From a virus: a stretch of DNA of 22,030 bases. Shown here one piece after another: positions 11,415-20,393 of the stretch. Position 1 is the stretch's first letter, and each line of letters opens with the position of its first letter. The stretch lies in IMG/VR virus record IMGVR_UViG_3300042691_014598, positions 1 to 22,030 of that record. The stretch is one strand, 5' to 3'. The translations under genes and the position numbers were made by a program. The notes below the pieces were generated by a model, which was not told where the DNA came from, did not search any database, and worked only from the letters and a program-made list of their open reading frames with translations.

Positions 11415-11573
11415 TCAAATCATTATACCAAAAAAGGAGAGTTTATGCAACTCTCCCATCAGGTCTTTCATGCACGCCACCAATTCTTTGACTGGAAATT
11501 GGAAACCAGGCGGGAGAGAGTCCCATCCGCACCAAATGCCCTTGAGAGAGGCAGTAAACTCAAATCGGGTCAT
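11415..11573 (-). CDS. Possible 52-aa protein of unknown function
   Basis: Minus-strand frame from the ATG at 11573 to TGA at 11415, starting MTRFEFTASLKGIWCGWDSL. GGAG lies six bases before the ATG, a good ribosome-binding site. Its C-terminal codons run through the terminator hairpin and promoter at 11422-11456, which is unusual for a functional gene end. A plus-strand frame (MQLSHQ..., 11444-11579) also has an AGGAG before its ATG, but that AGGAG is one arm of the hairpin. I prefer the minus strand because every neighbour is on it. No family recognised. Confidence 0.4.
   Translation of the reverse strand: MTRFEFTASLKGIWCGWDSLPPGFQFPVKELVACMKDLMGELHKLSFFGIMI
11422..11450 (-). promoter_or_regulatory. 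Sigma-70-like promoter of the glycan island
   Basis: TATAAT (11422-11427, minus strand) with TTGCAT (11445-11450) 17 bases upstream. The -10 is perfect and the -35 weak. Predicted start near 11415, giving a leader of about 16 nt to the ATG at 11399. The -35 lies across the loop of the terminator hairpin, and the terminator T-run lies in the spacer. Confidence 0.65.
11430..11456 (-). terminator. Intrinsic terminator before the glycan island
   Basis: On the minus strand an 8-bp perfect stem GGAGAGTT/AACTCTCC (11449-11456 with 11436-11443) with a 5-nt loop GCATA is followed by six T (11430-11435). It would end transcripts coming from the small-gene block upstream. Confidence 0.8.
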
Positions 11574-19920: not shown

Positions 19921-19994
19921 AATGGTGGGGATTTACCCAGCCTCAGGTTTCCCTTCACAGGCACGGAACCCCACGCACTTCACTTCACACGGAC
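19921..19994 (-). ncRNA. Candidate structured RNA between promoter and tRNA-Gly
   Basis: From the predicted start (about 19994) to the tRNA-Gly 5' end there are about 74 nt. On the minus strand GTGGGG (19969-19974) pairs with CCCCAC (19925-19930). Inside lies GCCT-GTGA-AGG-GAAA-CCT-G-AGGC, a stem-loop with a GAAA tetraloop. It is not a tRNA: no T-arm or anticodon arm fits. RNase P cleavage at the tRNA would release it. Confidence 0.45.
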
Positions 19995-20000
19995 TTGTAA

Positions 20001-20029
20001 AGTATATGACATAATGAGTATTATGTCAA
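20001..20029 (-). promoter_or_regulatory. Sigma-70 promoter overlapping a 9-bp palindrome
   Basis: Minus strand TTGACA (20024-20029), 17-base spacer, TATACT (20001-20006). The -35 and spacer contain the perfect inverted repeat TGACATAAT-ACTC-ATTATGTCA (20007-20028). Drives the structured RNA and tRNA-Gly. Confidence 0.7.
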
Positions 20030-20214: not shown

Positions 20215-20215
20215 G

Positions 20216-20289
20216 CGTCTTGGGAGGGACTCGAACCCCCGACCAACTCATTAGAAGTGAGTGGCTCTATCCATCTGAGCTACCAAGAC
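20216..20289 (-). tRNA. tRNA-Arg (TCT)
   Basis: Minus strand: acceptor GTCTTGG/CCAAGAC (7 pairs), D-arm GCTCAGATGGATAGAGC, anticodon stem CTCAC/GAGTT-type with loop TTCTAAT (anticodon TCT), T-arm GGGGG-TTCGAGT-CCCTC, discriminator G. First tRNA after the cluster promoter. Confidence 0.94.
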
Positions 20290-20358
20290 ATAAAGTAGGT
20301 TCCTATCGCCGCCACTCCTGAACCTACCGAAGGGGAGTGTCGCAGTTGATCTCTCAAC
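20290..20358 (-). ncRNA. Candidate small RNA: GNRA hairpin plus H-type pseudoknot
   Basis: The 69 nt from the predicted start (20358) to tRNA-Arg can form, on the minus strand, GTTGA-GAGA-TCAAC (a GNRA tetraloop hairpin, 20344-20357) and two interlocked stems: CACTCC (20334-20339) with GGAGTG (20313-20318), and GTAGGTT (20321-20327) with AACCTAC (20295-20301). The pairing order is that of an H-type pseudoknot. T4 also carries small non-tRNA RNAs (C and D) in its tRNA cluster. Confidence 0.55.
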
Positions 20359-20364
20359 CCTCTT

Positions 20365-20393
20365 ATTATACTACTGCTTGGGACAGTCGTCAA
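20365..20393 (-). promoter_or_regulatory. Sigma-70 promoter of the tRNA cluster
   Basis: Minus strand TTGACG (20388-20393), 17-base spacer, TATAAT (20365-20370). Overlaps the last codons and stop of the gene 20371-20775. Predicted start near 20358. Confidence 0.82.

Follow-up and report, generated by a model that had tools for sequence, protein, structure and literature searches.

A covarying H-type pseudoknot RNA between promoter and tRNA or protein genes in cyanomyoviruses

The leader of a viral tRNA cluster encodes a structured RNA, a hairpin (P0) followed by an H-type pseudoknot of two stems (S1 and S2), and covariation of both knotted stems across related viruses confirms that this structure is real; on the best reading, cyanomyoviruses carry the element as a single-copy gene for a small RNA. 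The window, by which we mean the whole stretch of DNA that was analysed, is the IMG/VR virus record IMGVR_UViG_3300042691_014598 of 22,030 bases, and its minus strand carries seven tRNAs, four of them in one cluster headed by tRNA-Arg at 20289-20215. The element is at 20358-20294 on the same strand, between the near-consensus promoter TTGACG-17-TATAAT and tRNA-Arg, ending 4 nt upstream of the tRNA (Table 1). A first-pass annotation of this DNA had described a GAGA hairpin and the interlocked stems CACTCC/GGAGTG and GTAGGTT/AACCTAC, and all of these are present on the minus strand as written. The second stem, S2, comes to 8 bp when one additional G.U is counted, and beyond the earlier description there are two extra pairs below S1, C20342-G20310 and G20341-C20311, which lie across a conserved purine-G mismatch (20340/20312); the mismatch adjoins the latter pair, which is G-C in the window and can be U-A in relatives.

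Table 1. Features of the element and its flanks in the window.
Feature	Position	Strand	Remarks
-35 hexamer TTGACG	20388-20393	-	11/12 promoter matches, 17-nt spacer
-10 hexamer TATAAT	20365-20370	-	exactly 6 nt upstream of the hairpin in 87/91 loci
P0 hairpin GTTGA-GAGA-TCAAC	20345-20358	-	stem covaries; base 20358 is the predicted +1
TGC joint	20342-20344	-	C20342 pairs with G20310; the G partner belonged to the search pattern
S1 extension pair G20341-C20311	20341	-	10 both-side changes; pair x, E=0.03
S1 5' strand CACTCC	20334-20339	-	covariation
Loop 1 CCUUC	20329-20333	-	CCUU invariant among loci read
S2 5' strand GGUAGGUU	20321-20328	-	covariation
CA junction (C or U, then A)	20319-20320	-	19/19 exceptions are UUUAGG
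S1 3' strand GGAGUG	20313-20318	-	covariation
Loop 3 GGCGAUAGG	20302-20310	-	near invariant
S2 3' strand AACCUACU	20294-20301	-	covariation
Linker to tRNA-Arg, 4 nt	20290-20293	-	RNase P cut predicted at the linker's 3' side
tRNA-Arg (UCU)	20215-20289	-	tRNA call in the window

The structure is confirmed because of comparison, the folding energy and the evidence of the first-pass annotation being weak on their own: folding of the single sequence does not predict the knot but returns a different nested fold, with an MFE z of -0.71 against shuffles. In an alignment of 73 sequences, with P0, S1 plus its extension, and S2 all included in the pairing test, 97.7% of structure cells are paired compared with 81.3% in shuffles and at most 52.5% when the partners are slid, and both sides have changed in 249 cells compared with 77 in shuffles, with 14 of the 20 pairs showing at least one such change. 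Unaided, RNAalifold recovers P0 and S1. A tree-aware null, in which substitutions were re-dealt along a FastTree tree with site rates kept, was applied to 86 distinct cores whose alignment was anchored rather than guided by pairing; all nine of the highest-ranking pairs belong to the structure, and four of them reach E<=0.05 (S1_3, S2_5, S2_6 and the extension pair x), so that the covariation exceeds what phylogeny accounts for. On this tree 27 branches carry double compensations and 68 single changes keep a pair, as against 7 that break one, and a MAFFT-based version of the test agrees. Absence of compensatory changes in homologues had been named beforehand as grounds for dropping the proposal, and they are found in both knotted stems. 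The structure cells contain 89 G.U and 5 A.C combinations, and therefore it is the RNA of the tRNA strand that is under selection.

Relatives of the element are found in many viruses of marine cyanobacteria. With the element alone as query, blastn matches S-SKS1, SynMITS9220M01, S-SCSM2R, ACG-2014f, P-SSM2, P-SSM5, S-B43, RB11-B and single-cell viruses. The pattern TTCAGGN{4,8}GGCNATAGGAA, which occurs once in the window (expectation 0.00 in window shuffles), retrieves at least 120 stretches from IMG/VR, nearly all genuine by eye, with five chance matches in other sequence among the stretches listed; a wrongly spaced version of the viral pattern returned 120 contigs whose printed sequences lack the element, usable solely as a negative control. 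In genome contigs the pattern matches look like chance, just one of the four scored with our covariance model of the element (R1) reaching E=0.28. In total 133 distinct loci were read. The TT/AA of S2 and the GG of S1 belong to the search pattern, so invariance at these positions is by selection of the sequences and the alignment in part overstates it; the anchor residues are nevertheless conserved, because scans for exceptions gave few true variants. A scan for a non-C base at the CA junction found 19 contigs, each of which has T there and retains the complete structure, and the scans of the viral collection for exceptions to the GGC of loop 3 found 3 contigs, 2 of them true copies with a single base changed.

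The R1 model finds one match, and no more, in each of 18 records, with E values from 4e-20 to 3e-13; it also matches two loci outside its training set, both before gp32, at 62-68 bits. Under strict filters it finds none in Syn9, S-PM2, P-SSM4, S-RSM4, S-SSM7, S-SRM01, T4 or P-SSP7, and under stricter filters none in 292 cyanobacterial genomes. The earlier suggestion of a new class is borne out in that Rfam 15 has no family at 20290-20358, either at the gathering score or at E<=10, and a full-text literature search yielded no description of the element, the manA/wcaG paper alone being relevant to cyanophage and pseudoknot. By these sequence comparisons the element is a family of its own, separate from manA, wcaG, abiF and T4 RNAs C and D, although it would behave like the RNAs excised from tRNA clusters. 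An HDV-like ribozyme was considered on topological grounds and rejected, since no P3 hairpin fits between the S2 5' strand and the S1 3' strand, a judgement from topology rather than a model test.

Both ends of the RNA appear to be set by its neighbours. A promoter with at least 10 of 12 matches lies upstream in 92 of 128 loci, compared with 2.2% of shuffles, and a P0 stem of at least 5 bp is present in 84% of loci, compared with 27% of shuffles; the predicted transcription start is the first base of P0 because the hairpin follows the -10 box at a nearly constant distance (Table 1). At the other end, 68 of the 133 distinct loci have a tRNA beginning 1-5 nt beyond S2 (56 Arg-UCU and 12 Pro-UGG), and thus at every one of the 68 tRNA loci the RNA is positioned such that RNase P would free it, as the first-pass annotation had proposed. 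The promoter, the homologues and the covariation likewise agree with its view that this tRNA operon of a cyanophage begins, on the promoter side, with a pseudoknot RNA. As a general description, however, a leader of the tRNA operon holds for the window and is too narrow, since a protein gene lies downstream in about 42 of 133 loci (about one third), with its start codon 5-50 nt away and mostly 13-37 nt. By Pfam, these genes encode gp32, Trp halogenase, PMM, purM/AIR synthase, DUF6561 and a PstS-like PBP domain. At eight loci, including that of S-SKS1, the next gene is separated from the element by another promoter, and additional promoters in this interval were judged by eye for L030 and L054.

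Several observations were made around these positions. In L399, L400, L403, L405 and L409 the element forms part of the 5' leader upstream of the gene for the gp32 single-strand binding protein, the identity of which was checked by Pfam for L399 and L405. The T4 gene 32 mRNA carries a pseudoknot, and this position recalls the T4 case; an equivalence of the two was rejected, as few copies precede gp32 and most do not. In L058 and L126 a small Cys-rich, HNH-like ORF (MNSCLKCGSPTK...) follows immediately behind the element, the tRNA-Arg of L058 being broken and the S2 3' strand of L126 no longer pairing. A tRNA-like CCA end was also rejected: many copies terminate in CUACCA, but the window and others do not. 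In the window itself, a second promoter (TTGACA-17-TATACT) on the minus strand at 19921-20029 heads a possibly structured leader (GUGGGG/CCCCAC; fold z -1.4) that ends flush with tRNA-Gly and for which the phage collection holds no convincing homologue.

Other cyanophage RNAs share these places. The manA RNA (RF01745), like the element, is a cyanophage structured RNA found either at the 5' ends of transcripts of protein genes or directly against tRNAs, and in ACG-2014f and S-B43 it is one tRNA away from the element; unlike the element it has 192 positions, another sequence and another fold, without an Rfam cross-match, and RF01745 gives no match at 20290-20358 even at E<=10. The order in ACG-2014f is element, 1 nt, tRNA-Arg, 1 nt, manA RNA, 1 nt, tRNA-Asn, and S-B43 repeats it with tRNA-Thr in place of tRNA-Asn, while in S-CREM1 and S-SSM7 manA is flush against tRNAs. 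It lies 0-1 nt from tRNAs in L002 (2632-2842), L003 (2620-2830), L010 (2619-2829), L429 (1185-1399) and L428 (864-1064). Both manA and wcaG are annotated as cis-regulatory in Rfam and have been proposed as cis-acting leaders (PMC2864571); manA RNAs within tRNA arrays would be excised as free RNA, because tRNAs abut them on both sides, as in L002, L003 and L429. The wcaG RNA (RF01761) resembles the element in that it, too, belongs to cyanophages and lies in the same region, most genomes having a single strong copy; it differs in sequence, and its sole match in the window, at 11466-11563 on the minus strand (97.9 bits), is about 9 kb from the element and outside it.

The abiF RNA (RF03085), a type III-like RNA antitoxin, is likewise a small RNA adjoining a tRNA, though as a 37-nt motif of other sequence, and it has no match at the element or in the 6 element-bearing genomes tested. 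Solitary abiF RNAs lie 4 nt before a tRNA in S-SRM01 (L258, 1460-1496, tRNA-Arg), S-CREM1 (L429, 1501-1537, tRNA-Gly) and S-SZBM1 (L430, 1501-1537, tRNA-Ala). In the case of S-SRM01, where the tRNA-Arg region contains an 82-nt match 100% identical to the window, the abiF RNA occupies the element's slot before tRNA-Arg. No Abi_2 protein is present in these three abiF-bearing phages, and their solitary abiF RNAs are candidate RNA anti-defence genes. Of 285 cyanobacterial genomes, 19 have Abi_2 proteins above the curated cut-off. In C. difficile, the abiF-bearing ncRNA RCd22 binds the AbiF toxin directly and thereby neutralises it both in cis and in trans (PMC12373285).

From this arrangement we infer how the RNA would be expressed, processed and act in trans on a target. 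Transcription would start at the first P0 base from a sigma70-type promoter, read early by the host polymerase, and the RNA would fold into P0 and the H-type pseudoknot, a structure of some 65-75 nt that leaves hardly any dangling sequence at either end. At loci with a downstream tRNA, RNase P would cut a few nucleotides from the knot and release the RNA; at those with a protein gene, another mechanism may generate the 3' end, or the RNA may remain on the mRNA. The free RNA would then act in trans, most likely by presenting its conserved loops (CCUU, CA and GGCGAUAGG) to a host or phage protein. We put the probability that the element yields a free structured RNA of this kind, excised through tRNA processing and acting in trans, at roughly 0.55. 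We favor this reading because the element has one copy per genome, changing neighbors and ends fixed by promoter and RNase P, and because its placement equals that of a known trans-acting RNA, abiF; against it, at roughly 42 of 133 loci the element shortly precedes the start codon of a protein gene, which is where a cis leader would be expected.

Because of those protein-gene contexts we keep as a candidate, possible but not probable, a leader that would control the downstream gene in cis, either in the manner of a riboswitch or by binding a protein. The element does stand at the 5' end of transcripts with the start codon often 13-25 nt away, its compact pseudoknot with conserved loops is reminiscent of small aptamers, and the annotated cis-regulatory manA and wcaG RNAs share these places. 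However, the same RNA precedes unrelated proteins as well as tRNAs, which need no translation control and from which RNase P would detach it; each genome has a single copy, at some loci the next gene has its own promoter, and in the sequences read, by inspection rather than systematic count, no shared terminator-like hairpin lies between element and gene. A general 5'-end protector or processing aid, in which the +1 hairpin and the pseudoknot block RNase E/J so that the transcript survives, would explain why the hairpin begins exactly at +1 and why the element stands before any kind of gene; it seems unlikely, as many operons would be expected to use such a device and yet each genome has one copy, and the near-invariant loop bases would be superfluous for protection.

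Descent from a common ancestor with T4 RNA C or D is very improbable. The analogy drawn in the first-pass annotation survives as one of layout: these too are small RNAs abutting a tRNA in a phage tRNA cluster, T4 rnaD lying 1 nt from tRNA-Arg. Unlike the element, which is 5' of its tRNA, RNAs C and D are 3' of the last tRNA and of different size, and homology was not detected, R1 having no T4 match at the E<=0.001 cutoff and a weak one (E=0.85) on the other strand only. Least probable of all is a chance structure or a DNA-level signal, a view that could appeal to an MFE no better than shuffles and that the comparative data refute through the covariation of both knotted stems and the asymmetry of G.U and A.C.

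Within the trans-acting reading, the specific version that we find most attractive is a counter-defence role, as for the solitary abiF RNA, and it may claim about one third of that reading. Phages are known to evade ToxIN through a pseudo-ToxI RNA (PMC5086642). The element resembles ToxI/CptI-type antitoxins in being an H-type pseudoknot RNA; it differs in having just one unit, with a hairpin on its 5' side, and in matching nothing in Rfam. Antitoxins of that type are tandem repeats cut by the toxin, and the element is present in one copy per record. Also against the trans-acting reading, it has no Rfam similarity to ToxI or abiF, and a host RNA or toxin partner was not found, with R1 matching 0 of 292 cyanobacterial genomes under the stricter filters. 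In its full form the proposal, which we advance tentatively and consider rather doubtful as a whole, is that the phage uses the RNA as an antitoxin or decoy against a defence nuclease of the host, that the RNA is produced at the front of a tRNA operon and freed by host RNase P, and that together with manA and abiF it is part of a general arrangement in cyanophages whereby tRNAs punctuate arrays of small RNAs.

Cyanomyoviruses are abundant and well studied, and yet Rfam 15 lacks this RNA, although it covaries, occurs as a single copy and is found even in the model phage P-SSM2. If the antitoxin or decoy reading were true, manA in those phages would need to be reinterpreted as a free RNA, and a counter-defence RNA would add to the few cases of RNA-based anti-defence. 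More generally, the positions of the element, manA and solitary abiF RNAs flush with tRNAs suggest the testable view that tRNAs serve as cutting signals that release small RNAs, which would bear on why phages keep tRNA clusters.
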